From IMG/VR virus record IMGVR_UViG_3300023179_000402, positions 1 through 28,391 of that record: a stretch of DNA of 28,391 bases; one strand, written 5' to 3'. Under the pieces are notes generated by a model that did no database searches, was not told the DNA's origin, and saw nothing but the letters and a program-made list of their open reading frames with translations. Shown piece after piece: positions 3,846 to 25,443 of the stretch (positions are counted from its first letter, which is position 1; each line of letters starts with the position of its first letter). Origin of the DNA: a virus. Position numbers and translations under genes: made by a program.

Positions 3846-4454
3846 TTAGTCAAAATGAGTTTCAATAAATTCATCCAACGCATCTTTAATATATAGAAAA
3901 TATCTTTTATTTAAAAAATCAATATAATCAGATAAAGTTTTAATTTTTAAAAATTCAGGTTCATAAAATATTTCTTTAAAATCACCAAAATTTCTTTCCA
4001 CCATTTTAAATTGATCATTGTCATATACAACTTCTTGAAGATCTATTGGAAATATTCTATTTGCGTCCCAAACAAATGTGGCATATCCAATTGCTTCTCT
4101 AATAAATTCATCATTTGGTATATATGTAAATTGAATTGATAGTGACATATAATCAGGATATATCTGTAGTTTGGTTCCGTCATCAAAAACTTTTTTTCTA
4201 TTTAAAATATCACTAGTTAACACATATTCCCAAAAATAATCATGTAACATTTGAGTATCATTAATATCAACTTTTATATGGTCTTTTAATAAAAATATTA
4301 AAATTTCGCGTGAAAGACTGGTGTATTTTCCAATGTCAATTATATCAATTCCTTCATCATACATAGATAAAACTAACTCCTTTGTTTTTTTAAGGTCGTT
4401 GTTACTTTCTTGTAACTTTTTTAATTGTTTTTCTGTTATTACTATTTTCACCAA
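3846..4454 (-). CDS. Leader-bearing hypothetical protein
   Basis: A 202-residue protein whose N-terminus MVKIVITEKQLKKLQES is a clear member of the leader family, with L-Q-E before a Ser at residues 14-17. After it come a helical segment with a helix-turn-like DIGKYTSLSREIL and a beta-rich acidic body ending DALDEFIETHFD. I recognise no family. The start overlaps the end of the gene at 4448-4834 by seven bases, so it is the last member of a tightly coupled series of leader proteins. If the leader is a capsid-targeting peptide, the mature protein would be about 186 residues. Confidence 0.85.
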   Translation of the reverse strand: MVKIVITEKQLKKLQESNNDLKKTKELVLSMYDEGIDIIDIGKYTSLSREILIFLLKDHIKVDINDTQMLHDYFWEYVLTSDILNRKKVFDDGTKLQIYPDYMSLSIQFTYIPNDEFIREAIGYATFVWDANRIFPIDLQEVVYDNDQFKMVERNFGDFKEIFYEPEFLKIKTLSDYIDFLNKRYFLYIKDALDEFIETHFD

Positions 4455-4834
4455 TTAAAGTTTTTTCTTGTGTTATTTTGATTATTGATTGAAACTCGTA
4501 TATTATTTCCAATAATTTGTTTTGTGGCCCATTGAAGTTGTATTTCAAAATCAGATAAATCTTTATATTCTCTAATATAGTTGTAATCAACGTCAATTTT
4601 TACAAGTAAAAAAGTTTCTTCTTTAGTTGTTTGTGTTTTTACAAAAACTTTTTGGACATCTACAACTTTTATTTTTTCTACTGTTTCAACTTCATCGCAA
4701 GTATAAGAATTGATTAGACTATTTTCACAATCATCCTTCAGATCGTCAAAAGCCATATTAATAAGACTTTGCATAGAATCAAGATTTGATTCCAACAACA
4801 TTTTGTACTGACTCTCTGTTATTATTATTTTCAT
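4448..4834 (-). CDS. Leader-bearing hypothetical protein
   Basis: A 128-residue protein. The ATG at 4834 is preferred over one four codons upstream because it makes an ATGA overlap with the preceding stop and starts the leader MKIIITESQYKMLLES (L-L-E then Ser). The body is acidic at first (FDDLKDDCENS) and then beta-like (VVDVQKVFVKTQTT, FLLVKIDVDYNYI), ending in an Asn-rich tail. No known family. The first 26 bases of its coding DNA are identical to those of the next gene upstream at 5385, which suggests recent exchange or copying of the leader DNA. Confidence 0.85.
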   Translation of the reverse strand: MKIIITESQYKMLLESNLDSMQSLINMAFDDLKDDCENSLINSYTCDEVETVEKIKVVDVQKVFVKTQTTKEETFLLVKIDVDYNYIREYKDLSDFEIQLQWATKQIIGNNIRVSINNQNNTRKNFNW

Positions 4835-5385
4835 TCTTCTATCCAAACCGTATTTACTTCAACCATTATTCCTGTCTTCTTTGTTACTTCTTCATATAAA
4901 ATATCTTCAATTACTGATCTAATTTCACTTTCAACTTCCCACCATAAATCTGGATTTTCTTCAATTTTACTTAACAAATGTGTTTCCCCATCTGTCATTA
5001 TTAATGTTACTTTTCCATCACTTTCAATTGGGCAATCAACATATGTTAAATTATCTTCTTCATAATCACTATGTCCTTGTACTTTAAATCTAAAATCATA
5101 TCCACCCACAAAATCATAATCATTAGTGTCAAAAGTCCTATCCATTAACTCGTATGATTTTTCAACCATCTTAATCCAACCACCAAGAAAATCCCTATAT
5201 AATTCGTGAGTTCTACCTATTGGTTTATAATTTATGTAATTGGCAATTTTAGGATCAAAATCAATCTGTCCTGTTGAATCAAGTTCATCTTGCCAAATTG
5301 AAAATAGTGCTTTTTTTGCACGTTCTTCTTCGTTTTCTGACTCTAAAAGTCTATTATATTGACTCTCTGTTATTATTATTTTCAT
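4831..5385 (-). CDS. Leader-bearing acidic protein, paralog of the next gene
   Basis: A 184-residue protein with leader MKIIITESQYNRLLES (L-L-E then Ser). The body is acidic and shares a layout with the protein at 5385-5954: an F-S-x-W helix, a D-x-D segment, then R-x-x-x-x-Y-R-x-x-x-GG-x-x-K-hydrophobic-x-x-K, followed by beta strands and a negatively charged C-terminal half. The two look like old duplicates. Function unknown. It overlaps its neighbours by one and four bases, in keeping with one operon. Mature length after the proposed cut would be 169 residues. Confidence 0.85.
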   Translation of the reverse strand: MKIIITESQYNRLLESENEEERAKKALFSIWQDELDSTGQIDFDPKIANYINYKPIGRTHELYRDFLGGWIKMVEKSYELMDRTFDTNDYDFVGGYDFRFKVQGHSDYEEDNLTYVDCPIESDGKVTLIMTDGETHLLSKIEENPDLWWEVESEIRSVIEDILYEEVTKKTGIMVEVNTVWIEE

Positions 5386-5954
5386 TACAGTATTGATTCA
5401 ACATGAATGGGAACACCATACTTTTCAAATTTAGGTTCTAAAAAACTAAAAATTTCATTTTTTAAAAAATATTCAAAATCTGATGTATCATATTCTAATT
5501 CTTCAAATTGATCCCCTAAACTCATATTAGGAACCATTTCCATTTGTTCAGTTTCTGAATTAAGCACATACCCATCAACAGTCCCATCAAATATTTGACA
5601 AGTAATATCAACAGTTCCACCAAATTCATCAACACCATAAGATTCAATACCATCTATCTTAAAGTTCATTTTAAGATTTTCATTACCTTCCAAATGAAAT
5701 TTTTTATTTAAAAATTCTTCATTTATTTTTTTTATTAACTTCTCATAACCACCATTATATCTATACCATATTGGTCTTATTGATTGGTGATCTTCTCTAC
5801 TATTTTTTCTAATGTCTGTAACTTGAAATATGATATCATCTAAAGATGGATCTTCACCTTGTCTTTTTTGGTTGTTCCAAAATGAATATAAAAACTCTCT
5901 AAGGTTTTCCTCAGTTAGTTGTCTATATTGTGCTTCTGTTAATATTAGTTTCAT
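5385..5954 (-). CDS. Leader-bearing acidic protein, paralog of the previous gene
   Basis: A 189-residue protein with leader MKLILTEAQYRQLTEEN (L-T-E at residues 13-15). The body begins with a helix containing YSFWNNQ, then IRPIWYRYNGGYEKLIKKI, which lines up with the R-x-x-x-x-YR-x-x-GG segment of the protein at 4831-5385; beta-rich acidic sequence follows (FGGTVDITCQIFDGTVDGYV). No known domain. Stop and next start overlap by one base (TAATG). The start overlaps the stop of the SleB-type hydrolase gene by four bases (ATGA). Confidence 0.85.
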   Translation of the reverse strand: MKLILTEAQYRQLTEENLREFLYSFWNNQKRQGEDPSLDDIIFQVTDIRKNSREDHQSIRPIWYRYNGGYEKLIKKINEEFLNKKFHLEGNENLKMNFKIDGIESYGVDEFGGTVDITCQIFDGTVDGYVLNSETEQMEMVPNMSLGDQFEELEYDTSDFEYFLKNEIFSFLEPKFEKYGVPIHVESIL

Positions 5955-6784
5955 TTTTTCTTTTTTGGTTTTGGTACAACATTACCAAAAATATGATTAC
6001 CTATAACCGCAGTTTTAACCCATTTAGTCGTGTCAGTACTTTTAGACCATTCAGGACTTACATAGTCCGCATAATAAAAGTTCGCACCATTGGTTATATC
6101 TTCAATTGATCCCATACTATTAACAATATCAATCGCGGTTTGCATTTGGTCGTGTTTTTTATATTTATTATAAACTTCTTGTTTTGTTATAGAACCACTG
6201 TTATATGAATTCCACATAGAAAACTGTTTATTTGCAAGTGCTTGAGCGACTACCGTGTTTCCTTTACTAAGATGATTGCTTTCCGCTCTATTTTTTAATA
6301 CATTAGCAACTGCTTGCATTCCTTTTTTAGCGTCTGATTCACCACCAGCTTCACCTAAAAGAGTACAAACCAAAACTTTATTATTATCACTTAATTTATT
6401 AAACAATTCTAAAGCCTTATTAGGTTCTACTTTATCTGTTTCTTTTGTTTCTTTTTCTTTTTCAAGTTCCGAAACTGTTTTTGGTCCTATCTTTTCTCCT
6501 GAAACTACCATTGGTTTAAATAAATCAATGATTGCTTGTTTTGTCTTATCACCATAATACCCTTCAGGACTGTATTGGTCCAAAAGTTTTTTGTTTTTCA
6601 ACATTTTTTGTATTTTTACAATGGCCGAGTTAGAACTATTATTACAATACCCTTTTGTTAATATTTTTCCATTTTTAACATCGTCTAAAGTTATTATATC
6701 GCTAGTCTTAGTACCGGAAGGACAAGGATTATCCGATTCCATTATTAACATTTTATATTGACTTTCTGTAATAATTATTTTCAT
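5951..6784 (-). CDS. Leader-bearing SleB-type cell-wall hydrolase
   Basis: A 277-residue protein in three parts. Residues 1-17 are the leader MKIIITESQYKMLIMES (I-M-E then Ser). Residues about 40-110 look like a peptidoglycan-binding domain (SAIVKIQKMLKNK ... GYYGDKTKQAI). Residues about 131-267 match the cell-wall hydrolase SleB family (Hydrolase_2): LLGEAGGE with the likely catalytic Glu145, AVANVLKNRAESN, QFSMWNS, TNGANFYYAD, and IGNHIFG near the end. The family cleaves peptidoglycan glycan strands. There is no signal peptide or holin nearby. A wall hydrolase with the same leader as its unknown neighbours fits a virion protein used at infection better than a lysis endolysin. It is coupled by ATGA to the genes on both sides. 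Confidence 0.88.
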   Translation of the reverse strand: MKIIITESQYKMLIMESDNPCPSGTKTSDIITLDDVKNGKILTKGYCNNSSNSAIVKIQKMLKNKKLLDQYSPEGYYGDKTKQAIIDLFKPMVVSGEKIGPKTVSELEKEKETKETDKVEPNKALELFNKLSDNNKVLVCTLLGEAGGESDAKKGMQAVANVLKNRAESNHLSKGNTVVAQALANKQFSMWNSYNSGSITKQEVYNKYKKHDQMQTAIDIVNSMGSIEDITNGANFYYADYVSPEWSKSTDTTKWVKTAVIGNHIFGNVVPKPKKKK

Positions 6785-8292
6785 TTACAAATTACTTTTT
6801 CTTTTTCATTATATGGGACTTTTTTTACTGTCGGTTCCAATTCATCTTGTTTTCTATATCTATAGGTTTGGATTTCGTTGACCCCCTCTTTTATCTTAAA
6901 TCTAATTGATAATCTTTTTTCATCACAACCTCTTTGTCCTTTATTAGACCAATATAAATCAATATATTCAGTAGGAACTATGGTCTGATAATCATAAATA
7001 ATCCCACCCATTTGTGATTTCACTTTTTCTAAGTATTTTTCAGCATCTGGATTATTTTGAATCCATTCAAATATTCTTTGGATAAGTTCATTATAAAGTC
7101 CAATGTACTCACCCTTAAACGCTATCTTTTCCGTTTCTTTAAAAATTGAAAAGAACTCTGATAAATAACTATCAATAAATGGGTCCATTTTTTTAACCTC
7201 AAAGTTTGTATTACTTGGAAATATGGTTTCACCACTACATGTTAAATCTTTTTGTGTTACAACATCAGCCTTAATATAATAGGACCCTTGTGTGAATGAT
7301 TTTTGAATACATCTTGTTATTTGATCAAATGCAATATCTAATGACCTTTCTTCTGATTTAACAGATGTTAATATGTTAAATAGTGTTTCTTTTGCATCGT
7401 CTTCGCAATAGTGATTCAATCTTAAAAATGTCGCTTTTTTCTTAAAGTGTTCTCCTTCTAAACTTTGTTCATACTTTTGATGTTCTAAAGTCCTAGCGGT
7501 TTTTAATATGTCTTCAAAATTATTAGGGATTTTTTCTGTGTTTCTTTGTTTATTTAGAGCTCTTTTGGTATCTGTTTTATCGTATTTATCATCTTGGATA
7601 AAATCTGATATCAATTTCAAATAGTTTACAGTTCTACCTTCATCTTGTATTGCTAAATCAACAATCACAGGAAGCATCCCGACATTTTTATATCTAAAAT
7701 AGTCATCCAAAACTTCCATCGCAACTTCCAATTCAACTTTATCGTCATCGGCAAGTTTTTCACTTAATTTGTATAAAGTACAAAATGGTTTGTTTTCTTT
7801 TTGATTAACACATAATTTATGTAAAACATTTTTATATTTTTTAGACATCTCAGAAAGAAGTTCATATTGTTTTTCAGATATTATAATGTTTAACCTTTTT
7901 GATTCTTTTATCTTATCTTTTTCTGTTTTTCCTTTATGTGGTATTTCATGCTCCTTTGGTGTAAGATCAATACCTATTTTTTTACCGAATATTATAAGGA
8001 ATGGTGTTAATGGTATTGGTAATGGTATAATTGCAACAATTGTTAAAATTAAAGTCCTAACAACATCTACTGATTGACCTTTAATGAATTTTTTATCTTC
8101 TTCGTTTAAATCAAACTCTCTATCTTTTGCGTATGATTTTACAGCGTGAGTTAATATTTTAACTAATGCCTTTGTTTCTTTAATTTCAGATTGTGCCCTA
8201 TCTCTTACATCTTTAAGTTTAGATAATACTTTTTTAACAATACCTTCTTCACTTTTATCTTTCACCAATAAATCACGTTTTTTAAACTCCAT
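6781..8292 (-). CDS. Membrane protein with LETM1-like segment and an internal leader motif
   Basis: A 503-residue protein. I start it at 8292 rather than 18 codons upstream, because the longer form would translate a terminator hairpin and because TATTTAT lies 4 nt before this ATG. Residues 1-75 are charged helix; 76-107 form a Pro-rich hydrophobic stretch (VVRTLILTIVAIIPLPIPL, then GKKIGIDL) resembling the single membrane segment of LETM1-like proteins. At about 134-148 stands LNIIISEKQYELLSE, plainly the leader motif but inside the protein, with no start codon there. The remaining 350 residues are helical and of unknown function, with several Cys. It appears to be a fusion of a membrane module with a leader protein. 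A cut after L-S-E would free the C-terminal part. It is the first gene of the operon that runs down to 3846. Confidence 0.8.
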   Translation of the reverse strand: MEFKKRDLLVKDKSEEGIVKKVLSKLKDVRDRAQSEIKETKALVKILTHAVKSYAKDREFDLNEEDKKFIKGQSVDVVRTLILTIVAIIPLPIPLTPFLIIFGKKIGIDLTPKEHEIPHKGKTEKDKIKESKRLNIIISEKQYELLSEMSKKYKNVLHKLCVNQKENKPFCTLYKLSEKLADDDKVELEVAMEVLDDYFRYKNVGMLPVIVDLAIQDEGRTVNYLKLISDFIQDDKYDKTDTKRALNKQRNTEKIPNNFEDILKTARTLEHQKYEQSLEGEHFKKKATFLRLNHYCEDDAKETLFNILTSVKSEERSLDIAFDQITRCIQKSFTQGSYYIKADVVTQKDLTCSGETIFPSNTNFEVKKMDPFIDSYLSEFFSIFKETEKIAFKGEYIGLYNELIQRIFEWIQNNPDAEKYLEKVKSQMGGIIYDYQTIVPTEYIDLYWSNKGQRGCDEKRLSIRFKIKEGVNEIQTYRYRKQDELEPTVKKVPYNEKEKVICK

Positions 8293-8296
8293 AATA

Positions 8297-8303: not shown

Positions 8304-8304
8304 C

Positions 8305-8646: not shown

Positions 8647-8678
8647 CAAATGTAATAACTTTATTTTGAATAATCAAA
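8647..8678 (-). promoter_or_regulatory. Bacteroidota-type promoter (TTTG-N20-TACATTTG)
   Basis: TTTG (8678-8675), 20-nt spacer, TACATTTG (8654-8647) on the minus strand. It overlaps the stop codon of the upstream gene and would give a leader of about 30 nt for the small basic protein at 8611. Confidence 0.78.
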
Positions 8679-9711
8679 TAGTTGTAATATTATATAGTGG
8701 TCTTTTGTTAAATTTAAAATCATATCTAGGTCTCATAAGTACTTCATTTCTGATTCCTAACATTTGAAAAATGTCTAATAACTGCATTCCTATCTCATGC
8801 CAAACTCTACTCATAGTGTCGTAAACTTTATTTTCTTTGTCCACATCAATATATAATATTAACACCGGATCAAAATCACCAATCTTCAATTCATAACCAT
8901 ATAGTTTAAATTCTAATGGAACAAACTCACCAACTGACTCTGAAACTTGAGATAACATTTGAAGTGCTTGTTTTATTTTTTCAATATTATAACCAATTCT
9001 TTTTAGGCTATCTTCTTCTTTAGATTCCGATACAATGGGATGGAAAAACTCCGAATGGGACCGATTAACTATATTAGGAAATGCTCTTTCAACACCATCA
9101 GGAAAAACTGATTTTACAGACATATAACAATCAACATTATCGTTTTCTATAGGAAAATACATTGTATGAACAAACATTATATCATCAAACAAGTTTTCTT
9201 GTTCTTTATAACTGACCCTTGAATAATCTTTGAATTTTATTTTGTATTCATATACTGGTTTTTGTTTTTCAATTTTCCAATCTGTTTCCCTTAAAGATAT
9301 TTCTATACCGTCACACCATTCATAATTTGATGCGTATTCATTGACATCTATTTCAACGGTTTTTTTGAATCTTTCTTCGTTTTCAAATTCTTCATTCAAT
9401 TTCTTTTTTCTTCCTTGACAATGTGCTCTTTGAGAGAATCCTTTTGGATTATTACAGTTAATACTTTTTTTATATTTTTCACTCCATTTTTCTGTGACCT
9501 CTTCTTCTTTTTTATAGTTCTTCCAAAAGTTTTCAAGTTCGTCGTAATTATGTTTTTCTTTTGCTGAATCATAACCACACATATGACATAGATATGGGTG
9601 TTTATCTTCTTTTTCTATTTTCCATGAATGATCGCACTTTTCACAACTAAATTTTTTAGATGTATTTTCTCTAATTTGTTCAAGTTGTTTTTGTGTTACT
9701 ATTACTTTCAT
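8674..9711 (-). CDS. Leader-bearing zinc-ribbon protein
   Basis: A 345-residue protein. Leader: MKVIVTQKQLEQIREN (I-R-E then Asn). Residues 21-48 form a zinc ribbon, FSCEKCDHSW ... LCHMCGYD, with Cys23, 26, 42 and 45. A second conserved block at about 74-104, YKKSINCNNPKGFSQRAHCQ, then basic GRKKK, is one I have seen in other T4-like phage proteins, with two Cys and one His. The last 240 residues are acidic and of unknown fold, ending near GIRNEVLMRPRYDF. The zinc ribbon and basic patch suggest contact with nucleic acid. It is the last gene of a TGATG/ATGA-linked series and ends at the promoter of the gene at 8611. Confidence 0.85.
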   Translation of the reverse strand: MKVIVTQKQLEQIRENTSKKFSCEKCDHSWKIEKEDKHPYLCHMCGYDSAKEKHNYDELENFWKNYKKEEEVTEKWSEKYKKSINCNNPKGFSQRAHCQGRKKKLNEEFENEERFKKTVEIDVNEYASNYEWCDGIEISLRETDWKIEKQKPVYEYKIKFKDYSRVSYKEQENLFDDIMFVHTMYFPIENDNVDCYMSVKSVFPDGVERAFPNIVNRSHSEFFHPIVSESKEEDSLKRIGYNIEKIKQALQMLSQVSESVGEFVPLEFKLYGYELKIGDFDPVLILYIDVDKENKVYDTMSRVWHEIGMQLLDIFQMLGIRNEVLMRPRYDFKFNKRPLYNITTI

Positions 9712-10742: not shown

Positions 10743-11621
10743 TTAAAACTCTATTGGTGGTTCTTCAAACTGAACCGTGTCTTTATCTAAGATAGTATAT
10801 TTACCAATCTCATTCTTAAATATATAAATATCTTCTTTATCGTTAGATGCAAATATGAAATAATCGACTGGTTTTTTGTCTAAGTTTTTAATATTATAAC
10901 TTTTAACTTTATAGAATTTACCAATCCTTTCAAACTTAGTTAAAGGTTTTACTTGAAACTTTGCTAACTTTCCTGTTTTTACGTGTTCCATAACAAAATC
11001 AACCCCTTCTCTGTCTGTTTTAGAACCAGGAACTGACCTACCTTTTAATTTCCAATTTGGTAGGTTTTCTAATATTTTAGAAAGGTAGTCATATGCCTTT
11101 CTTTCATTTAATTCTCCTTGATAAAGTGATTCAATATTTTTTTCAATTAATGAGTCAAGTATTGGTCCATCTTTGAATATTTTATTTCTATTTGTGGACA
11201 TCCACTTAATAAAATCTTCCAAAACATTAGTGTTATTAAGTAAATTACCGGTTTCTTTTTCATATAATCCAACAATAGTTCTTCTAACTTGTGGGTTAGT
11301 GTCAAAGTAATTAAGTATTGACCAATCACCACCTTCAGAATCGTAATCAGTCAAACCTTTTTTATTTAGTAAATCAAAAACTGTATGAATACCAACAACA
11401 CCTCCACCACCACCAGGTCCTCTACTTCTATCACTACTCCAATTTGTTTTATATAAGTCTTTTAAAATAAAATAAACTTTCTCTTTAAACCTTTTTGTAA
11501 ATTCATCTGAATTGATGTTTATTGGTTTTCCTTCATCTCCATCAAATAAAGAGAGTTGGTCATCATTTTCAACCAACATCAATTTTTTAATTCTATTTAT
11601 ATTTTCTTGTAAATTTTCCAT
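10743..11621 (-). CDS. Leader-bearing PD-(D/E)XK-like nuclease
   Basis: A 292-residue protein. The N-terminus MENLQENINRIKKLMLVEND is a second leader type (N-x-x-R-I-K-x-L-M) ending L-V-E before Asn. A glycine-rich loop, RGPGGGGGVVG, follows at about 67-77. At 164-225 the order of conserved residues fits a restriction-endonuclease fold: Glu173 in GELNERKAYDYL, Asp208 in REGVDFVMEH, then FQVKPL with Gln223-x-Lys225, a known variant of (D/E)-x-K. Strands KPVDYFIFASN and IYIFKN complete the core. DNA or RNA cleavage is likely; the target is unknown. A packaged nuclease could attack host DNA or rival phages at entry. Start and the next stop overlap by one base. Confidence 0.72.
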   Translation of the reverse strand: MENLQENINRIKKLMLVENDDQLSLFDGDEGKPININSDEFTKRFKEKVYFILKDLYKTNWSSDRSRGPGGGGGVVGIHTVFDLLNKKGLTDYDSEGGDWSILNYFDTNPQVRRTIVGLYEKETGNLLNNTNVLEDFIKWMSTNRNKIFKDGPILDSLIEKNIESLYQGELNERKAYDYLSKILENLPNWKLKGRSVPGSKTDREGVDFVMEHVKTGKLAKFQVKPLTKFERIGKFYKVKSYNIKNLDKKPVDYFIFASNDKEDIYIFKNEIGKYTILDKDTVQFEEPPIEF

Positions 11622-12385
11622 TATACTAATTGGTATTTTTTTAATTCTACCGTTTCGCTCTCATCGTAATATTGTTCGTGATATAAACTAATTGTTCTTT
11701 CATTAAAATCTATTACAATTCTTCCGTCAGCTCCTTCATTATTTTCCCAACCACTATGATAAACATCAATTATTTCATACCCTAAATACTCAATATCTTG
11801 TGGTAGATCAACAGGTTCATCAATTTGACCACTATCTCCTCCACCATTATAAACTAATTCAAATACACCACCTTCTCCTTCATTTTTATATTTTTTAATA
11901 AATTCAGGATCCAATAGTTTTTTTAAATAAGTGAATTTTTGCCATGGATAAATAGCTTGTGTATTAGCCCACTCTTCAAAAGTTTTCATATGTTCACTTT
12001 CTTGAGAAAGTGTTAGATATCTATCAGCAAAAGTTGTAAAAATTTGTGTTTCTGAATCATAATGAACTTCAAGTCTTCCTGAACCATTGCAATTATCACA
12101 ATCAAATGCGTCATATAAATCATCTTCAGAATCTTTTGCAAATTCTAATGCCATTTCATCTATTAAAATAAAACCAGGGTCTCTTTCAATTTCATTAATT
12201 TCATTTCTTCTATCCCACCCATTTTTTCCTGCGGGTAACGGTGCTTCAAATTGATCATAATATATACTTTCTTCTGAATAAACATATAAACCCCATTCAA
12301 TTCCGTCACCAAAAACTGCAGTCATATAAGCGTTTGGTCTTACAAGTTTTTGTTTTTGTTCTTCAGTTAATTTAATTTTTTTCAT
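11621..12385 (-). CDS. Acidic protein with DUF6878-like C-terminal domain
   Basis: A 254-residue protein. It begins MKKIKLTEEQKQKLVRPN, a leader variant in which the L-x-E site is lost (L-V-R). A half zinc-finger-like CDNCNGSG lies near residue 96. The C-terminal third, YNGGGDSGQIDEPV ... YHSGWENNEGADGRIVIDFN, recalls the DUF6878 pattern (G-D-S-G-Q-I-E and G-G-W-x-x-N-x-G). The same domain layout is present in the protein at 12856-13605. I know no function for it. It overlaps its upstream neighbour by ATGA. Confidence 0.78.
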   Translation of the reverse strand: MKKIKLTEEQKQKLVRPNAYMTAVFGDGIEWGLYVYSEESIYYDQFEAPLPAGKNGWDRRNEINEIERDPGFILIDEMALEFAKDSEDDLYDAFDCDNCNGSGRLEVHYDSETQIFTTFADRYLTLSQESEHMKTFEEWANTQAIYPWQKFTYLKKLLDPEFIKKYKNEGEGGVFELVYNGGGDSGQIDEPVDLPQDIEYLGYEIIDVYHSGWENNEGADGRIVIDFNERTISLYHEQYYDESETVELKKYQLV

Positions 12386-13990: not shown

Positions 13991-14407
13991 TTATAAGTTT
14001 TTTTCTTCTAAAGGTAAATTTTCATATTCATCTTCAGCATAAAAAGTTAGATAAATTGATATTGGTATGTCTTGTAATTTATCTTCATAGATGTTATCTT
14101 CTAAATGTTGGATGTACCAAACATTTTCATTATATCCAATTTCTTTCCATCCAGGCAACATATCTTCACCATCAAGAGTAAATTCAGTTATAATGACATT
14201 AATAGATGCCACTGTCTTGGTTCCTTCACCTAACACTTTACCAACTTCCATGTAATATTTTAAAGTATATTCTTCATAACCTTCTTCAAGTAAATCTTCT
14301 TCTTCTTCGTCATCCCATGAAGTTACTTGATATGTTGTTTCAAACTCTTGGTTTTCAAACATACCTTTTAGTAAGTTTTTTATTTTTATATTTTCTTCTA
14401 TATTCAT
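13991..14407 (-). CDS. Acidic protein with a degenerate leader
   Basis: A 138-residue, very acidic protein. The start MNIEENIKIKNLLKGMFENQ resembles the N-x-x-I-(N/K)-x-I-K-x-L-M leader at 11621, with M-F-E before Asn at 16-19. An acidic run WDDEEEEDLLEEGYEE follows, then a beta-rich part (VASINVIITEFTLDG, IPISIYLTFYAEDE). No family recognised. It overlaps the gene upstream by ATGA. Proposed cleavage here is less sure because the position before x-E is Met. Confidence 0.8.
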   Translation of the reverse strand: MNIEENIKIKNLLKGMFENQEFETTYQVTSWDDEEEEDLLEEGYEEYTLKYYMEVGKVLGEGTKTVASINVIITEFTLDGEDMLPGWKEIGYNENVWYIQHLEDNIYEDKLQDIPISIYLTFYAEDEYENLPLEEKNL

Positions 14408-14781
14408 TTTACAGGTAATACGAAATTTAAAAATGCCCTTATTGTTTTCATTGTTTTTTGTCTATTAGCATCAAAACCTTGATTTCCTCTAAAATCATCA
14501 GTATTTAATTTTTCAGCATATTCTAACATGTTAAGTAACATCCACTCCATGTCTTTTCTACTCATATAACTTGATAAACTATGTCTTGGGAAATCCACAA
14601 AATGAACTTCTTTCCAACTAAGTGGTGGTAAATCATCTTCATCTACCCAAATACCTCTTGGTAGTGTTTTTTCTTCAACAGTATGTCTTCTTAAAAGAAA
14701 GTTCATAAGTTTTCTATCAATATCTTCATGTTTTTTTGATAGGTCGTCTTTTTCTTCTTCAGTTAAAAAAATTCGTTTCAT
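14404..14781 (-). CDS. Hypothetical protein with TEEE leader variant
   Basis: A 125-residue protein. It begins MKRIFLTEEEKDDLSKKHED, like the leader family in its first ten residues but without an L-x-E site. The rest contains RGIWVDEDDLPPLSWKEVHF and a helical C-terminus (KDMEWMLLNMLEYAEKL, then TMKTIRAFLNFVLPVK). No known domain. It overlaps both neighbours by ATGA, so translation of the three is probably coupled. Confidence 0.82.
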   Translation of the reverse strand: MKRIFLTEEEKDDLSKKHEDIDRKLMNFLLRRHTVEEKTLPRGIWVDEDDLPPLSWKEVHFVDFPRHSLSSYMSRKDMEWMLLNMLEYAEKLNTDDFRGNQGFDANRQKTMKTIRAFLNFVLPVK

Positions 14782-15302
14782 AAATTATAAGTATTTTTAG
14801 ATATTAGTTTCGTTGTTTCAATATATGGTTTAAAATTTTCAATAATTCCACTTATGAACAGTTGTAAATAAAATGGTGTTAATTTTTCTAAAATTATCGT
14901 TTTAAAATTTTTACCATCATAATAATAATTCTTAACTAATGCAGAAAATTGTGTTTGATTTTTAATTTTATACAATGAAGAAATAATATCATTTGGTGAA
15001 TTTTTATTAATTGCATTTGTTAATTCAAACGATATGTTTTCTATTTTTTTATAGTCACTTTGTGTTGATGGTAGTTTACTCATCGTATTAATCAAATGTA
15101 TAACGCTTTCTTTTGCGGAAATATTTTCTTTTTTAAATTGTGTCATTCCTGGTCCAAATTCTACACCTGAATCAATACCATCTTGCACTTGTGGTGGTCT
15201 TCCAGCACCCATAGTTGGTTTGTTTAAATTATAAGGGCCAGTTATTTGTTCTGACATACTTATAATATTTTTTAATTGATTCTCGGTTATAATAATCTTC
15301 AT
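14778..15302 (-). CDS. Leader-bearing hypothetical protein
   Basis: A 174-residue protein with leader MKIIITENQLKNIISMSEQ (M-S-E before Gln, a weak site). Residues 22-56 are Gly/Pro-rich and flexible (GAGRPPQVQDGIDSGVEFGP), followed by a helical, Asn/Ser/Lys-rich body that is not acidic, unlike its neighbours. No domain recognised. TATTTAT lies 4 nt before its ATG, so it probably heads the coupled series 15302-13991. Confidence 0.82.
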   Translation of the reverse strand: MKIIITENQLKNIISMSEQITGPYNLNKPTMGAGRPPQVQDGIDSGVEFGPGMTQFKKENISAKESVIHLINTMSKLPSTQSDYKKIENISFELTNAINKNSPNDIISSLYKIKNQTQFSALVKNYYYDGKNFKTIILEKLTPFYLQLFISGIIENFKPYIETTKLISKNTYNL

Positions 15303-16767: not shown

Positions 16768-17154
16768 TTATTGGGTTACTGGATTGAAAGTTATTGTCCC
16801 ATAATTTTTTTCTTCAGGTATTACATTACCATCCGCAGGTGTAAGGTTTAATTTTGTACCGTCATAAACATATTTCCACTCATTATTACCTTTCCAACCA
16901 GCAACTGCTCTACCTTGTGTTTTTGAAAAAACGCTATTATCGAATGTCCAATTGTTAGAAAAAGTAAGACCGTTGTCAGAAATATTGTTAACTTGAGAAA
17001 CTTCGGGAAACCCTTTTGCTGGATTAAATTTTACAGTTCCTGTTTTATTTGTATTAAAATAGTTAGAATCAAAAACTTGTGTTTCTTGTTCTAATATAAC
17101 TCGTCTTACAATTCTTGTAAGATCTGATTCTGTTAGTCTAATAATTCTTTTCAT
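16768..17154 (-). CDS. Leader-bearing protein with RIVRRV leader
   Basis: A 128-residue protein. Leader MKRIIRLTESDLTRIVRRVI then LEQE (I-L-E at 20-22, Gln next). This third leader type (L-T-E-S-D-L-x-R-I-V-R-R) shares the TES word with the MKIIITES type. The body is Asn-, Thr- and Gly-rich and beta-like, with two echoing strands: GTVKFNPAKG near the start and GTITFNPVTQ at the C-terminus. It recalls small beta-sandwich proteins. It follows a second protein of the same leader type 8 nt upstream. Function unknown. Confidence 0.85.
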   Translation of the reverse strand: MKRIIRLTESDLTRIVRRVILEQETQVFDSNYFNTNKTGTVKFNPAKGFPEVSQVNNISDNGLTFSNNWTFDNSVFSKTQGRAVAGWKGNNEWKYVYDGTKLNLTPADGNVIPEEKNYGTITFNPVTQ

Positions 17155-17162: not shown

Positions 17163-17405
17163 TTATTGGTTGATTGTCCCCTTAAAAGTAAGTGTTGCAC
17201 CATCTTTACCAGTCAAAACGATAGTATTACCTTCTATTTTGAATGTTCCGTTTTCACCTAATCTAGGTCCTAAGTTTGAAAAAATTGTTGGTACATTTAT
17301 TGATGACTTCATTACATGTCCTTGATTGATGTTAATTGGTTCACCTTCATTAATTACACGTCTAACAATACGTGATAAATCTCTTTCTGTTAATCTATTT
17401 CTCAT
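17163..17405 (-). CDS. Short leader-bearing beta-rich protein
   Basis: An 80-residue protein with leader MRNRLTERDLSRIVRRVINE (I-N-E at 18-20, Gly next), closest to that of the protein at 16768-17154. The mature part, about 60 residues, is beta-like: GTFKIEGNTIVLTGKDGATL followed by TFKGTINQ. It may be a small relative of the second half of its neighbour. A T4-late-like TATAAATA lies about 30 nt upstream. The two genes are bounded by that element and the terminator at 16724. Confidence 0.85.
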   Translation of the reverse strand: MRNRLTERDLSRIVRRVINEGEPININQGHVMKSSINVPTIFSNLGPRLGENGTFKIEGNTIVLTGKDGATLTFKGTINQ

Positions 17406-20032: not shown

Positions 20033-20038
20033 AAAATT

Positions 20039-21022
20039 TTAATTTCCAAACCCTACTTTACCTCCGCCTTTAATTGTTGGTGTTTTTTTCAACCCTTCAA
20101 GGTTTTCAATTGTTTCTTCAAAAGTTCTACCCATAACAATAACTGAAATTACAACTTCTTTTAAATGTGATAAAGACATTCCTTCAGTTTTTTTAATCCA
20201 TTCTTCAATATCAATACCTTTTAAATCTTCATCATTTAATTTATGTTGGATGTATGCTCTTCTTATATCGGAGTTTGGTAGTTCTACTTTATATCTTCTG
20301 TCAAAACGAGATGGTCTATTGGTGATTCTTTCTTGTAACTTCTCAGGATAGTTTGTTGTTGCAATATAAACAACACCTTCAATTTGTTTTACACCGTCAA
20401 GTATGTTTAATAGTCTTGCCGTTTGATGTCTACCTTCACCCGCAAGTGAATCAATATCCTCTAATAAAACAATAAGTGGTCTATTAGGTTCAATTTTTCT
20501 AAATGTTCCAATAAATGATGTAAACATTTCAACATCTTCTTCATTTTTTATATTAATCACAATACCATCTTTTTCAATTAGTTGTTGTGATATGAGTTGG
20601 ATAATTCCTGATTTACCGCAACCCGGTTCACCATACATCAAAATACCTCTTTTGTGAATATAGTTATATTTTTTATAGTTGTCTGCTCTATTCCAGAAAT
20701 TATCAATATCTTTTAAGATGTCTGTAATTTCATATGACGGTAAACGGTACAATTCGTCAGTTTTAAATGGTTGTTTTTTTACGGTATATGTTGATAGGCT
20801 ACTATTCCATCCTATTTCATATACGCCCGCAGGAACTTTTGGTACTGTTGGGTATGCCGGGGCGTATTCATTATTTTTTAAACTACTCCAACAAGAAGGT
20901 ATGTCTAAATCTTTTTTTTCTTCTTCCTTATTTATTTTACCAAACCTTCCAGTAATCAAAGGTTCATCCATTCTTTCATCATTAGTATATTCTAATGTTT
21001 CTTCGATATATTCTTCACTCAT
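20039..21022 (-). CDS. AAA+ ATPase
   Basis: A 327-residue protein with one classical AAA+ module: Walker A GEPGCGKSG (131-139), Walker B LIVLLEDIDS (183-192), sensor 1 ATTNYPE (221-227) and the arginine-finger region NRPSRFDRR (235-243), then a small helical lid. This is the FtsH/BCS1-type clade by its NRPSRFDR sequence. The first 100 residues are specific and include a Pro-rich AYPTVPKVPAG. It has no protease or membrane domain, so it may unfold or remodel a protein complex, perhaps with an adaptor. Related AAA genes are common in large T4-like phages of unknown role. A cluster of four small unknowns follows upstream (21046-21943). Confidence 0.9.
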   Translation of the reverse strand: MSEEYIEETLEYTNDERMDEPLITGRFGKINKEEEKKDLDIPSCWSSLKNNEYAPAYPTVPKVPAGVYEIGWNSSLSTYTVKKQPFKTDELYRLPSYEITDILKDIDNFWNRADNYKKYNYIHKRGILMYGEPGCGKSGIIQLISQQLIEKDGIVINIKNEEDVEMFTSFIGTFRKIEPNRPLIVLLEDIDSLAGEGRHQTARLLNILDGVKQIEGVVYIATTNYPEKLQERITNRPSRFDRRYKVELPNSDIRRAYIQHKLNDEDLKGIDIEEWIKKTEGMSLSHLKEVVISVIVMGRTFEETIENLEGLKKTPTIKGGGKVGFGN

Positions 21023-21045
21023 ATCATTTCTTTTTAATATTTCTT

Positions 21046-21246
21046 TTAATTCTTTTCTTCAGTTTCTTTCCATTGTTCTAATTTTTCCCAATCTTCTTTT
21101 TTAACAGAAACTCTTACACCATCAATAGTAAAAAATACTTCCTTAGTAAAAATCATAGGATCCTCTATTTTTTTAGGGTTTATTTTTATACTAGTGTAGT
21201 AAACACTTTCGTTTGCGAATCTAACAAAAACTTCAACTTTTTTCAT
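21046..21246 (-). CDS. Small hypothetical protein
   Basis: A 66-residue protein, MKKVEVFVRFANESVYYTSI ... KKEDWEKLEQWKE, with beta-like first half and a Trp-containing helical tail. No known family. It overlaps its upstream neighbour by 14 bases. Confidence 0.72.
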   Translation of the reverse strand: MKKVEVFVRFANESVYYTSIKINPKKIEDPMIFTKEVFFTIDGVRVSVKKEDWEKLEQWKETEEKN

Positions 21247-21451
21247 TTTTACTTTCTTTAAATGATGAATAAAAAAAACTTAATTCTAAAAAAACTATAA
21301 TAACTCTACCCCAAATATTTTCAATTAACCACCATTCTTTTGGATTCCAATTTAAATAGATTAATGAAAATATCAAGTACCAAAAAAAATTTGTTGTAAT
21401 GAACTGTGTAATCTTTAACCCTAATGGTTTTTTTTCTTTATCTAAGGACAT
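21233..21451 (-). CDS. Small membrane protein
   Basis: A 72-residue protein with two likely membrane segments, FITTNFFWYLIFSLIYL and WGRVIIVFLELSFFY, joined by NWNPKEWWLIEN. The charged ends (MSLDKEKK, ESKNEKS) would both be on one side of the membrane. No signal peptide. It could be a holin-like or membrane-modifying protein, but nothing specific supports that. It overlaps both neighbours by 14 bases. Confidence 0.75.
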   Translation of the reverse strand: MSLDKEKKPLGLKITQFITTNFFWYLIFSLIYLNWNPKEWWLIENIWGRVIIVFLELSFFYSSFKESKNEKS

Positions 21452-21680
21452 AACTATGAATTATTATAACTATTTCTTCTATTCTATTATTTTTCATAAT
21501 GACAGCTCTATCATCTTTGATGATTAGATCCATCATTCCAAGTTCATTTTTCATTCTTTCGGCTTGAACTTTTATTTCTTTTTTTGCATCTGACTCTAGT
21601 TTAAAAAACCCAAAATAAGAATCACATGTCCCTGTTTTATCACATACTGCGTGAATGATTTCTCTTGCTGGTTGTATCAT
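21438..21680 (-). CDS. Small hypothetical protein
   Basis: An 80-residue protein, MIQPAREIIHAVCDKTGTCD and further SYFGFFKLESDAKKEIKVQA; two Cys seven apart and a hydrophobic beta-like C-terminus (IEEIVIIIHSYVLR). No family recognised. ATGA overlap with the gene upstream. Confidence 0.72.
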   Translation of the reverse strand: MIQPAREIIHAVCDKTGTCDSYFGFFKLESDAKKEIKVQAERMKNELGMMDLIIKDDRAVIMKNNRIEEIVIIIHSYVLR

Positions 21681-21943
21681 AATTTATTTGCTATTTGTTT
21701 AATTAATTCTTCATTTTCGTTAGATAGTCTGTGATAGGCATTCCATAACTTTTCAAGAGCCTCTTTAAATTCTTTTTCACCTAGTGAATCATTTTCATCT
21801 CTAACTAATTTTCTAATTTCTGCGTTAGGATGTGAACCTAAAACACCATCATCAAATAACCAACGGGCCATTTCTCTTTTATCGTGTCTATCCATTTCAT
21901 GATAGATTTCATCTAAATCTATATCAATTCTTACGTAAGGCAT
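21677..21943 (-). CDS. Small acidic hypothetical protein
   Basis: An 88-residue protein beginning MPYVRIDIDLDEIYHEMDRH, a pattern I have seen in small phage proteins of unknown role, with a C-terminal helix (LWNAYHRLSNENEELIKQIA) that could form a coiled coil. It is first in a run of four overlapping small genes upstream of the AAA+ ATPase and begins about 30 nt before the terminator of the RNA ligase. Confidence 0.75.
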   Translation of the reverse strand: MPYVRIDIDLDEIYHEMDRHDKREMARWLFDDGVLGSHPNAEIRKLVRDENDSLGEKEFKEALEKLWNAYHRLSNENEELIKQIANKL

Positions 21944-21974
21944 ATTTTAATTTTTTATAAAGTTAATAAAAAAA

Positions 21975-21999
21975 GGTGACTCTATCAATGAGAGTCACC
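21975..21999 (-). terminator. Intrinsic terminator overlapping the end of the RNA ligase gene
   Basis: GGTGACTCT pairs with AGAGTCACC (9 bp) around a 7-base loop, followed on the minus strand by seven T's. The 5' half of the stem encodes the last residues (G-D-S-H) and the stop codon lies in the loop. Confidence 0.92.
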
Positions 22000-23100
22000 A
22001 ACATTATTTTTTTCACCGTATATCAAGTAGTCAGGATTTATCACTTTACTTACTTTGTTACGAACACCAGTTACAGATTTTACAACTATACCTTCATGTG
22101 GGACTTTAGTTCCTTCTATGAAGTTGTTCAAAACAAAACTATCTTGTATTTCTTTATTCCAAGTACCACTGTATAACAATTCAACTTGTGGTAGATCCAT
22201 CACTTCAAAGTGTGCCTTTTCTCTCGTATATGGTTGGTATTCACCATCAACCTCAACATCAAAACCTGCAAATTTTATATCAGTTAAACCGTATTCGTAG
22301 TTTTTCTGTATACCAGCACCATATATTTCTCCATACACTATAAAACCACTTTCAAGATATTCGTAAGTGTCTTTAACGTGTTCCCACAATTTTTCTCTTA
22401 TGTTGTATTTTATCGCAACTTCTTCCCATACGTTAGTGTCGTAAAAACCTTGTGAGTCGGATCCTTTCTCGACATTGTGACTACCTACTACATATTCAAA
22501 TCCAGCCCATTGATCTCCAAAGAACATTCTAACTCGGTCCCATAAAGACATTTTTTTCTTTCTAACTATACCGTAACGAGCATTAGTTCCATGTAATTTA
22601 CGAGTTATAACAACCATATCTTCCTCAGTGAACATATCAGGAACATTCTTTTGATTTGGAAACTTATAATATATGTGGAAGTTTGGATTTTGGTGGTACT
22701 TCATTTTACGACCACCTGAAACCAAGGTCACTGTTTTAACTGGTGGTTCAAACTTGAATATCTCTAACAATTCCATACAATCTGAACCTTCATAACGGTA
22801 TTTTTCAGGAACAAAAGTTATTGGTATTAACAAACATTCAGAGTAAACTCCACGAAGTTTTACGGTTCTAACTCTTTGACCTTTACGAAGGTAATTAGTG
22901 ACACCCAAACCATCAGATAATTTTTGTGGTATAACAGCATCAGTAGTTGCAACAACCACAAGATCATCAACCTTATATTCTCCTTTTTTGGTTATGGCGT
23001 TCCAACCACCAACAGTTACTAATTCTATGTTGTCAGCTCCAGGTATTTCAACAACTGAACCTATTTTTCCTACGTATGCTACGCTATTTTGATTTTCCAT
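21985..23100 (-). CDS. RNA ligase (Rnl5 / DRB0094-like)
   Basis: A 371-residue protein starting MENQNSVAYVGKIGSVVEIP. Residues 8-100 form an N-terminal OB-like domain (PGADNIELVTVGGWNAITKK). The nucleotidyltransferase core follows: motif I ITRKLHGTNARYG with the adenylated Lys168, motif III-like VYGEIYGAGIQK (about 255-266), motif IV HEGIVVKS (335-342) and motif V NKVSKVINPDYL. An N-terminal OB domain before the ligase core is the layout of the Deinococcus DRB0094/Rnl5 type. It seals 3'-OH/5'-phosphate ends, mainly in broken RNA. TATATTTG lies 4 nt before the ATG, and a terminator overlaps its end, so it forms its own transcript. The kinase, phosphoesterase and HAD genes around it could complete an end-healing pathway. 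Confidence 0.88.
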   Translation of the reverse strand: MENQNSVAYVGKIGSVVEIPGADNIELVTVGGWNAITKKGEYKVDDLVVVATTDAVIPQKLSDGLGVTNYLRKGQRVRTVKLRGVYSECLLIPITFVPEKYRYEGSDCMELLEIFKFEPPVKTVTLVSGGRKMKYHQNPNFHIYYKFPNQKNVPDMFTEEDMVVITRKLHGTNARYGIVRKKKMSLWDRVRMFFGDQWAGFEYVVGSHNVEKGSDSQGFYDTNVWEEVAIKYNIREKLWEHVKDTYEYLESGFIVYGEIYGAGIQKNYEYGLTDIKFAGFDVEVDGEYQPYTREKAHFEVMDLPQVELLYSGTWNKEIQDSFVLNNFIEGTKVPHEGIVVKSVTGVRNKVSKVINPDYLIYGEKNNVGDSH

Positions 23101-23104
23101 ACAG

Positions 23105-23112
23105 CAAATATA
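23105..23112 (-). promoter_or_regulatory. Probable -7 element TATATTTG of the RNA ligase gene
   Basis: TATATTTG on the minus strand ends 4 nt before the ATG at 23100. No TTTG is seen 19-20 nt upstream. It supports 23100, rather than the ATG 12 codons earlier, as the start. Confidence 0.5.
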
Positions 23113-23125
23113 ATAATAATTTTTT

Positions 23126-23662
23126 CTATTCGTCACTATCTTCTTCAGAATATTCTTTCTTCATAGATCTTGGTTCAACAAAATCCCACTTGGTATTTTC
23201 AAACTCTTCAATCCATTCTTTCAAATCTTCTCTTGTCCATATTGGACCAAAAGATGGTCGGTACTGAAATGGTACACTATCCCTATTTTCCCATTCATCA
23301 AGTCGTTGTGTTACATCTTCAATAAAATTTTTACTCTTAATGTATTTAATCCACTCTCTATAATCATCTTCGGATTTAATATACATAACATCACCGTAGT
23401 TATAAAACTCCATTTCAGGAAATTCTAAATTTGGATTGTTAGTATAGACATCAACAATGCCGTTGTCTCCGTTGTATTCACTGCAAAGTTCTTTTAATGA
23501 ATATAAACTTGATGGTTTTTCTTCCCAAACACTACCGAACTGACGAACAGAACAAATGTAGATATACCCATCTTCATATGAATGAATAAGTCCCTCAATT
23601 TTATTTCTCAGAGAAATAAGTTCGTCCATTGTTAGTTTTGATAAGTCCATATTAGTTTTCAT
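23126..23662 (-). CDS. Acidic hypothetical protein
   Basis: A 178-residue acidic protein. It may start at the Met four codons later (23650, MDLSKLTMDELISLRNKIEG), which would remove the overlap with its upstream neighbour. The body has YEDGYIYICSVRQFGSVWEE, a central Tyr-rich part and WTREDLKEWIEEFENTKWDF near the end, with a very acidic tail. No family recognised. It is linked with the gene at 23652. Confidence 0.78.
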   Translation of the reverse strand: MKTNMDLSKLTMDELISLRNKIEGLIHSYEDGYIYICSVRQFGSVWEEKPSSLYSLKELCSEYNGDNGIVDVYTNNPNLEFPEMEFYNYGDVMYIKSEDDYREWIKYIKSKNFIEDVTQRLDEWENRDSVPFQYRPSFGPIWTREDLKEWIEEFENTKWDFVEPRSMKKEYSEEDSDE

Positions 23663-24008
23663 ATAATCCGTCTTTTTCGTCGTCTTTCATCATTTTAACT
23701 ATCGCACCTTCTCTTTTGTATTTTCTCAAAAGATTGAAGATTTCTTTGATATCTGTAAATTCAGATGGTGGCGAGTCATTTCTTCCTGGAAGAAACATCA
23801 CAGTAAACCCGTGATTTGCTTGGAAATTTTCTTTAACTCTTATACCATTGATTTCACTAATATAAACCCAAGGAAAGTTTCCTGATAGTTTTACCTCTAT
23901 TCCTATTTTTTTAAGTCTTTCAATAAACACTCCGAGTTTATCTGTGCTTATTTGTGTGCTACTTTTTGTTTCCATTGTATATGTTCCAAATTTAGTTTTT
24001 ACTTCCAT
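23652..24008 (-). CDS. Conserved phage hypothetical protein
   Basis: A 118-residue protein. I start at 24008 (MEVKTKFGTYTMETKSS), because the upstream extension is out of keeping with a small gene that overlaps here. Features: DKLGVFIERLKKIGIEVKLS, then GNFPWVYISEINGIRVKENF, then a QANHGFTVMFLPGR and TDIKEIFNLLRKY ending. I recall this order from many marine and freshwater phage proteins, where it has no known function. It overlaps the end of the small zinc protein gene by 17 bases. Confidence 0.8.
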   Translation of the reverse strand: MEVKTKFGTYTMETKSSTQISTDKLGVFIERLKKIGIEVKLSGNFPWVYISEINGIRVKENFQANHGFTVMFLPGRNDSPPSEFTDIKEIFNLLRKYKREGAIVKMMKDDEKDGLYEN

Positions 24009-24165
24009 AACATTCAAGTTTCTTATCCGTGACATTCCACAAATCTTTTTTTCCTTCCGTCATATGACAGTTGTGTTTCTTTCCGGTTCTTTTTCCAAAA
24101 TCAACGATCATATCATTATGACGATTACGAATAAAGTGTGGACATTCTTTGCAAGGTTTTTTCAC
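23992..24165 (-). CDS. Small cysteine/histidine protein with GTG start
   Basis: A 57-residue protein, MKKPCKECPHFIRNRHNDMI, then VDFGKRTGKKHNCHMTEGKK and DLWNVTDKKLECYGSKN. Cys5, Cys8, Cys33 and Cys52 with nearby His make a probable zinc site. I recall near-identical small proteins in other phages (C-x-x-C-P-H, R-N-x-H-N, T-G-K-K-H-N-C-H-M). The GTG start is fixed by a full Bacteroidota promoter ending 4 nt upstream; no ATG is available upstream in frame. It overlaps the next gene by 17 bases. Confidence 0.78.
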   Translation of the reverse strand: MKKPCKECPHFIRNRHNDMIVDFGKRTGKKHNCHMTEGKKDLWNVTDKKLECYGSKN

Positions 24166-24169
24166 CCAA

Positions 24170-24201
24170 CAAAGTTAAGAAATGTTTTTTAATAAAACAA
24201 A
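24170..24201 (-). promoter_or_regulatory. Bacteroidota-type promoter (TTTG-N20-TAACTTTG)
   Basis: TTTG (24201-24198), 20-nt spacer, TAACTTTG (24177-24170), then 4 nt (TTGG) to the GTG at 24165. Spacing again implies a transcript starting at the start codon. The -33 element touches the end of the metalloprotease gene. Confidence 0.82.
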
Positions 24202-25443
24202 TTATTTTTTGAAATTGTAAGATTTTTGAATTGGTCTTTTACCATACCTTTTTTCCATAAGTTTTTGGTGTAGTTCCCAATCCAATATTGATTCATTTGT
24301 TTGTTCCTTTTCATCAGGAAGAAGTGCATATATTTTTGATATTTTTTTCATAAGGTTTGTTGCAACATAATTGAATCTTTCACATTCGTCAACAAAGAAG
24401 TCCATTTCTCTATTTTGATATTTTGATACGTGATTAATAAACTTTCTTCTAACCTTTTCTTTTTCTTCACTTGGTGGTTTAACTTGTCCACCGAATAAGT
24501 TTGCCCCCATAAACCCACTAAACATTTGTGCCATTTTTTCGGTATGAGAATAAAAGAAGTTATCAAAAGTATCTACTTTGGCATTTACCAAGTTAATATA
24601 AACAAGTTCTAAAACTGATTTTATTTTTTCATCTTCATCCATACTATTAGGATCGCCACCGGCGTGCTCAATCAAGCCATCAACATCACTCATCTGTTCA
24701 TGTAACTGTGAAATTAAAAAATCATATGAAAAATCCCTTATTGATTTTAATTCAGTAAATACTTGATCATTAACCATAAAATCATAAAAATCTTGTTTTT
24801 TAATTCCTTTTTGCATCATTCTTGACGCGATTTCAGTTGGTCTAACAATATTTTCTGAATGTTGTATGAAATAACTATATCTCATAAAATCACTTATTAC
24901 AGGTATTCCAAATCTTAGTGATTGTGATGAGTATACATTATAGTCAGCAGTATTACCAATAAGTTCATGTGTTTGTTTTTGTCTATGAAATCTATGCATA
25001 ACTTCATGTGACATTACAGAAACGTTGTGTTCTTTATCACTGTTATACTCTTTGTATAAATCTTCAGGTTCCCATCCTTCAGGAGCAATAAAATTAATAT
25101 GAAGATTTAGACTACTACTTTTAGCATTGACCTGTAACATAACACCTTCATCAAAATTAAATTCATTACCAACACCCATAGATGCGATTTTTGGCGTATC
25201 AAATGGTAAATCCTCAATTTCTTGAACATTAATAGTTAAATTGACTCTATCAAATGTTACATCAGAAATTTTAAGTTCTACATCATCTATTTCAAAATCA
25301 TAGTTTTCTTCTTTTAAATTGATTTGTTTTAACTCATCGGATACTATATTGTATAGTTCCTCACCTGCCTCTAATATTCCTTTAGGAACGCCAACCGCTT
25401 CCTGTAATATTTTAAATTGACTTTCTGTTAAAATGATTTTCAT
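24202..25443 (-). CDS. Leader-bearing zinc metalloprotease-like protein
   Basis: A 413-residue protein. Leader MKIILTESQFKILQEAVG (L-Q-E then Ala). Residues 20-140 are beta-rich and acidic. A zinc-protease motif, VSVMSHEVMHRFHRQ (His146, Glu147, His150, and another His153), follows, with a possible third ligand in IVRPTEIASRMM (Glu204), as in gluzincin-type enzymes. The rest is helical. Peptidase activity is likely but not proven by motif alone. There is no secretion signal. With the leader it fits a packaged protease, perhaps acting on host surface or host proteins at entry. TATTTAT lies 4 nt before its ATG. Confidence 0.8.
   Translation of the reverse strand: MKIILTESQFKILQEAVGVPKGILEAGEELYNIVSDELKQINLKEENYDFEIDDVELKISDVTFDRVNLTINVQEIEDLPFDTPKIASMGVGNEFNFDEGVMLQVNAKSSSLNLHINFIAPEGWEPEDLYKEYNSDKEHNVSVMSHEVMHRFHRQKQTHELIGNTADYNVYSSQSLRFGIPVISDFMRYSYFIQHSENIVRPTEIASRMMQKGIKKQDFYDFMVNDQVFTELKSIRDFSYDFLISQLHEQMSDVDGLIEHAGGDPNSMDEDEKIKSVLELVYINLVNAKVDTFDNFFYSHTEKMAQMFSGFMGANLFGGQVKPPSEEKEKVRRKFINHVSKYQNREMDFFVDECERFNYVATNLMKKISKIYALLPDEKEQTNESILDWELHQKLMEKRYGKRPIQKSYNFKK

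Follow-up and report, generated by a model that had tools for sequence, protein, structure and literature searches.

Background

In bacteriophage T4, short N-terminal capsid-targeting sequences (CTS) are known on only a handful of proteins. T4 propeptides are 10-19 residues long and follow an L/I-x-E rule, the first 10 residues of IPIII are enough for targeting, and it has been suggested that T4-like phages could acquire various proteins by way of the CTS (PMC9026906). Here we describe families of N-terminal leaders, shared by mostly unrelated proteins, in a 28,391-base IMG/VR virus record (IMGVR_UViG_3300023179_000402; the whole stretch is called the window below) and in its relatives, and argue from sequence comparison that they are probably capsid-targeting propeptides of a T4-type head.

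The leaders resemble the CTS of T4 IPI, IPII, IPIII and Alt, and the propeptide of gp24, in being short N-terminal peptides on unrelated proteins with an L/I-x-E just before the body, and in occurring in the same genomes as a gp21-family protease (PF03420) and a gp23 with an L/I-x-E/A site (a slash marks the known or putative cut throughout). Propeptides taken from the T4 record have the same build (MKTYQEFIAE/A, MKTFKEFTSTTTPVSTITE/A and MAKINELLRE/S), and one of our leader types, type D, resembles the gp24 propeptide in build only. What is new relative to T4 is the scale (between 12 and 61 tagged proteins were counted in each genome or fragment), the number of tag sequence families (six), the exchange of tags between homologous cargos, and an apparent C-terminal version, a type D-like helix in one cargo family encoded next to gp23; the cargos, moreover, are diverse and mostly without a Pfam or PHROG match. 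Giant phages of the SPN3US/phiKZ type likewise eject many head proteins, whose propeptides are cut by a related protease (gp245), and the SPN3US paralogs gp53 and gp54 have identical N-termini (PMC5694885); that system differs, however, in its A-x-E motif, in several propeptides exceeding 100 residues, and in processing about 8 proteins. In phage P1, the N-terminal 30 residues of DarB suffice for packaging of a reporter (PMC9024508), but the Dar proteins have no common N-terminal consensus and P1 apparently lacks a separate scaffold protein. In the papers searched, no description of the leaders reported here was found.

Leader families and their distribution

The window, which carries 53 called genes, nearly all on the minus strand, comes from an uncultured T4-like phage and covers part of its genome. 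About 12 of the genes have an N-terminal leader, with four leader types represented. It has 30 proteins in common with the 292-kb contig G019 (55-57% mean identity) and 34 with contig G004 (66% identity). Among the matches listed for gp23, the nearest relatives were Rhodothermus phage RM378 and Microcystis phage Mel-JY01, with no close named isolate. None of the contigs is rated complete, and gene starts were set by a simple calling rule. The leaders named in an initial annotation of the window were all recovered at their starts on the minus strand, including the LT-E-(S/R)-D-L-(T/S)-R-I-V-R-R form at 17154 and 17405; their sharing by mostly unrelated bodies stood, while the family had to be widened to types C and D and to an internal copy of type A.

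Similarity was scored as an ungapped BLOSUM62 score of at least 40 over the first 24 residues, with internal 24-mers as the control. By this measure 10 of 49 window proteins have an N-terminal partner, and no internal 24-mer does; similar pairs number 13 at N-termini versus 0 internally in the window, and 233 versus 6 in G019. Clustering of the G019 N-termini yielded one group of 67 proteins, a few of them there by chance. Five types are described by the consensus sequences MKIIITESQYKxLxE (type A), KRIIRLTESDLTRIVRRVINE (B), MNLQENIxRIKxMMGLxxE (C), LIRxILKE (D) and EEKNRILxLHE (E), and type G (LLEEIxRFxR) is a separate small group. The search beyond the window that the initial annotation had proposed showed such genes to be widespread, with all six types found and 14-61 genes per larger relative: regular expressions retrieved 61 leaders in G019, 37 in G009, 33 in G004, 20 in G018, 14 in G013 and 12 in the window, as opposed to 0-2 per genome in internal segments and 0-6 in reversed N-termini. 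Definition of the types and counting used the same genomes; for type A, a set fetched by DNA pattern offers a check that is independent in part. Tagged genes cluster in certain regions of each genome, with almost none in others.

A degenerate DNA pattern for the MKIIITE-x-Q start matched viral contigs in at least 120 places, and the strict type A leader DNA did not occur in 257 Gb of contigs from bacteria and archaea. A search of the phage collection with a single type B leader peptide as query gave no match, and two crAss-like phages, which lack gp21, lack both type A and type B leaders. Where leaders of the same genome share a residue, their codons differ at 55-104% of the rate that codon usage predicts, in most cases above 70%, indicating that it is the peptide that is conserved, and not recently copied DNA.

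The L/I-x-E junction

We asked how often an L/I-x-E lies at most 12 residues past the leader core. It does so in 47 of 81 type A leaders (58%), 25 of 29 type B (86%), 20 of 24 type C (83%), 9 of 16 type E (56%) and 5 of 8 type G (62%), against a background of 13% and 0-25% farther down the same proteins (p from 5e-19 to 2e-3). In the pattern-fetched set, comprising 45 body families, the motif occurs at residues 10-21 in 32 of 45, and at later positions in 3-8 of 44-45. In one relative (L213:18618-19178) the DUF6576 Pfam domain begins near the putative cut, at residue 15-16.

Leaders of types A and B contain two candidate sites, an ITE/LTE near residue 7-9, which is the more constant, and an LxE at residues 15-22. 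Additional sites inside propeptides have been documented in SPN3US (PMC5694885). The window proteins starting at 11621 and 14404, said initially to have lost the site, do lack the second one, but both retain the first (KLTE/E and FLTE/E), so that each still holds one of the two.

Exchange of leaders between homologous proteins

Leaders have been swapped among homologous bodies with the L/I-x-E junction retained. In the metalloprotease-like family the body is preceded by LIKE/AVGVP, LLSE/AVGVP or ILQE/AVGVP, with 15 to 21 leader residues before an invariant E/A. In the window member (24202-25443) and its relatives, leader length varies, while the E15-A16 junction and H146, E147 and H150 are invariant; its AF2 model has pLDDT below 50 for residues 1-19 and a confident body from about residue 21. 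A DHH protein begins with either MKMVITESQYKRLLNE/SG or MKQLINE/SG, a leader of 16 or 7 residues, each ending in NE/SG. The leader-like start at 14404 in the window is replaced by the type D leader MRKLIRHILKE/E on its homolog L215:18310-18633, and a pterin dehydratase occurs with either a type C or a type A leader, the type A form being without the second site.

Several of the exchanges involve genes adjacent to gp23. A protein marked by the motif RYMFFSNLEQ has a type D-like leader in three genomes and a type B-like one in two; its AF2 model (pLDDT 54) gave no insight into function. A protein with the motif GSRGSY starts with either ILKE/ATSTSG or INE/STSDGG, the latter resembling LINE/ATSDGSSG of gp23 from the same genome. 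In family A6 the N-terminal sites lie in a gp23 context (INE/STSDGGGRGS in G009, compared with LINE/ATSDGSSGS in gp23), an internal L/I/V-x-E/DLAVWFG is conserved in most members, and the C-terminus carries a type D-like helix. The C-terminus KPKNESLRDLIKKVLSE in a family adjacent to gp23 (L198:8712-9233, L210:17229-17948, L222:14257-14934, L226:18566-19276 and L232:4243-4929) resembles the N-terminal type D leader. The type D-like C-terminus next to gp23 is possibly a C-terminal head-import tag.

The head module of leader-bearing genomes

The initial annotation had made its reading depend on a gp21-type protease in the genome, a point that could be addressed in relatives only. There, a gp21-family protease (PF03420, Peptidase_S77) scores above the Pfam cut-off in 15 of 22 large leader-bearing contigs, and gp23 (PF07068) is found in the very same 15. 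G019 encodes gp21, a gp22-like scaffold and gp23. G004, where gp21 was not found, has 180 proteins in common with G019; the last of these matches fall just short of the head module of G019, and G004 ends before that module. Conversely, 13 contigs selected by gp23 alone contain gp21 in 13 of 13 cases, and type A or B leaders in 9 of 13 (E ≤ 0.001).

The capsid protein has the same kind of site: gp23 of this clade has an L/I-x-E/A or S maturation site near residue 60, LINE/A in nearly all contigs and LLSE/S in L225, of which LINE/A is the counterpart of LTE/A in T4 gp23. A regular expression hinted that type C leaders mimic the gp22 C-terminus (RMKDLM); this was rejected, as a type C profile ranked gp22-like proteins 74th or lower of 1,411.

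Two further features of head modules were seen. G005 (268,739 bases) contains two gp21 and two gp23 genes, at 31291-34946 and 233494-237899, representing either two head modules or a joined assembly. In PTm1 (AP019524, 217856), pT24 (NC_049383, 113549) and Lak-A1 (MK250015, 189174) the gp21-family match lies in frames of 531-597 amino acids, far exceeding gp21, and the protease is possibly fused to another head protein.

Cargos and leader-bearing genes of the window

For the majority of tagged proteins, neither Pfam nor PHROG gave a family match. The exceptions include wall hydrolases and further proteins of endolysin type, as well as a tRNA nucleotidyltransferase, pterin dehydratases and an HD-domain protein. 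Tagged proteins are not unusually basic in the manner of T4 internal proteins (mean net charge -0.036 vs -0.023 per residue), and a candidate ADP-ribosyltransferase (L032:3585-4127) was discarded, since its PARP match (E 0.019) fell below the cut-off and PDB gave no support. For the window metalloprotease-like protein (AF2 pLDDT 70, pTM 0.50), neither a PDB fold match at E ≤ 0.001 nor a match in a PDB sequence search was obtained. The genes are listed in Table 1.

Table 1. Leaders and leader-like segments encoded in the window, with putative cut sites
Coordinates	Strand	Type	Leader and next residues	Remarks
2156..2785	+	D	MRDLIRRILKE/E	
3846..4454	-	A	MVKIVITEKQLKKLQE/S	TTG start; ortholog L216:8468-9043, NLFE/S
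4448..4834	-	A	MKIIITESQYKMLLE/S	128-amino-acid body; ortholog L216:9336-9743 retains MLFE/SN
4831..5385	-	A	MKIIITESQYNRLLE/S	body similar to C-terminal half of L216:9740-10852
5385..5954	-	A	MKLILTEAQYRQLTE/E	ortholog L216:9740-10852, NLTE/K
5951..6784	-	A	MKIIITESQYKMLIME/S	cell-wall hydrolase (PF07486, E 3.5e-13)
6781..8292	-	A, internal motif copy	IISEKQYELLSE/M	at residue 137; ortholog has it too
8674..9711	-	A	MKVIVTQKQLEQIRE/N	zinc-ribbon protein
10743..11621	-	C	MENLQENINRIKKLMLVE/N	ortholog L216:14346-15263, RIKQLMLVE/S
11621..12385	-	leader-like	MKKIKLTE/EQKQKLV	first L-x-E only
13991..14407	-	possible C variant	MNIEENIKIKNLLKGMFE/N	by eye only
14404..14781	-	leader-like	MKRIFLTE/EEKDDLSKK	body homolog L215:18310-18633
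14778..15302	-	A	MKIIITENQLKNIISMSE/Q	
16768..17154	-	B	MKRIIRLTESDLTRIVRRVILE/Q	
17163..17405	-	B	MRNRLTERDLSRIVRRVINE/G	
24202..25443	-	A	MKIILTESQFKILQE/AVGVP	HExxH protein, metalloprotease-like

In the internal case (6781-8292), the ortholog L250:9244-10791 on G004 has the motif at the corresponding place, residue 148, IITEEQYEHLNE. In both proteins, which are about 500 amino acids long, the mid-protein motif follows an N-terminal portion that includes a hydrophobic segment; its position suggests either that the protein is cut internally or that an upstream part has been fused to it.

The zinc-ribbon protein contains the module KWSEKYKKSINCNNPKGFSQRAHCQG, which in L215:10979-11296 stands behind a type B leader. 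Small Cys/Lys-rich modules of this kind (KWSEKYKKSINCNNPKGFSQRAHCQG, LCARGKAAAKSKFDVYPSAYANG and the HPPCGR of DUF5872) recur in tagged and gp23-adjacent proteins (window 8674-9711, L215:10979-11296, L210:16774-17232 and L231:4639-5934), and LCARGKAAAKSKFDVYPSAYANG is present in Pelagibacter and Prochlorococcus phages too. The product of 3560-3817 begins with MKTYRQNLNIWLEE/K, which is like the T4 IPII/IPIII start MKTYQEFIAE/A, possibly by chance; its G019 ortholog begins MKTFRQELRNWLKE. A plus-strand open reading frame at 26597-27484, with repeated ENNPMYGK and NPFFGKKHTEET motifs, looks by eye like a NUMOD-type homing endonuclease.

Proposed mechanism and alternatives

The proposal that these leaders direct proteins into the capsid and are cut by a prohead protease, already made in the initial annotation, is supported by the enrichment of L/I-x-E, by leader exchange, and by gp21 and gp23 in the relatives. 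Under this scheme, a prohead core composed of the gp22-like scaffold and the gp21 protease would assemble, and the short, putatively helical N-terminal tag would bind the core or the shell and bring the protein behind it into the prohead. Cleavage past L/I-x-E by the gp21-family protease would then remove the tag, as gp23 matures at L-I-N-E/A, and the freed protein would remain in the head until it is ejected along with the DNA. The tag families, at least six in number, would serve the same purpose and be exchanged between cargo genes, and, being interchangeable, would allow one phage to load many unrelated proteins, among them wall hydrolases, metalloprotease-like and nuclease-like proteins. 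The best-supported description of the system, as far as sequence can tell, is a version of the T4 CTS/gp21 system that is modular and greatly expanded. The leaders show no sequence likeness to the T4 CTS; the resemblance would be one of function, and not necessarily of descent.

Several observations weigh against capsid targeting. The window contig, a fragment, has no gp21, and the gp22-like scaffold was named from its position and acidic composition, with no Pfam match. None of the six tag families is like MKTYQEFIAE, and the residue past the site is not mainly Ala, unlike in T4. The type A and B profiles are unmatched in T4, RM378, PTm1, Lak-A1 and pT24, although all five have gp21, so that these particular sequences belong to the present clade and not to gp21 phages in general. 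Only 12 of 34 small type A proteins of G009 and G013 (MKILITENKRKDLAYKLLDD...) have a second L-x-E, and the remainder may be cut at ITE, remain uncut, or act otherwise. The number of cargos that one head would have to hold also counts here, as does the fact that packaging, cleavage, ejection and cargo function are all read from sequence.

The shortfall of second sites in those small proteins is one point in favour of the first alternative. Here the tags do direct proteins to the prohead, but they are removed incompletely or cut at the first site, ITE/LTE at residue 7-9, leaving the helix on the mature protein, and in some short G009 and G013 proteins within a folded domain. Of the 81 type A leaders, 59 have TE at the ITE/LTE position, E7 is the sole nearly invariant column among 93 tagged proteins, and the propeptide removed from T4 Alt is only 7 residues long (PMC9026906). 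However, orthologs with leaders of differing length hold the second L/I-x-E at the body boundary, and types D and G have a single obvious site, which makes this alternative improbable.

A different destination, such as a phage-made compartment, the host envelope or a protease adaptor, with L/I-x-E being coincidental, might be imagined for those cargos that are wall hydrolases or lysis-type enzymes and for which a location in the head is unnecessary. Coincidence would have to account for L/I-x-E enrichment in five unrelated leader families, for a gp23-adjacent gene sharing the sequence context of gp23 cleavage, and for the co-occurrence of leaders with gp21, and we regard it as very unlikely. 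That shared leaders are recent, functionless copies of one DNA cassette, left as recombination scars, as the often tandem tagged genes and recurring identical peptides might hint, is contradicted by same-residue codons differing at 55-104% of the rate expected for unrelated ones and by the junction retained in orthologs whose leader changes, and deserves next to no credence.

Returning to capsid-targeting propeptides, a bolder extension would have up to about 60 genes per genome furnished with interchangeable head-import tags, the tag families and C-terminal versions acting as distinct addresses (e.g., core, shell or portal-proximal) that set the copy number or ejection order of a host-takeover cocktail. 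We consider this extension speculative and rather doubtful.

If the leaders are indeed capsid-targeting propeptides, the proteins that many uncultured T4-like phages carry in the head and inject at time zero could be read from sequence alone. This would yield an inventory of candidate effectors of early takeover and counter-defence, the majority belonging to no known family, and would supply short tags with which proteins could be loaded into phage heads. What makes a capsid-targeting sequence, a long-standing question in T4, would also become testable over six independent tag families.

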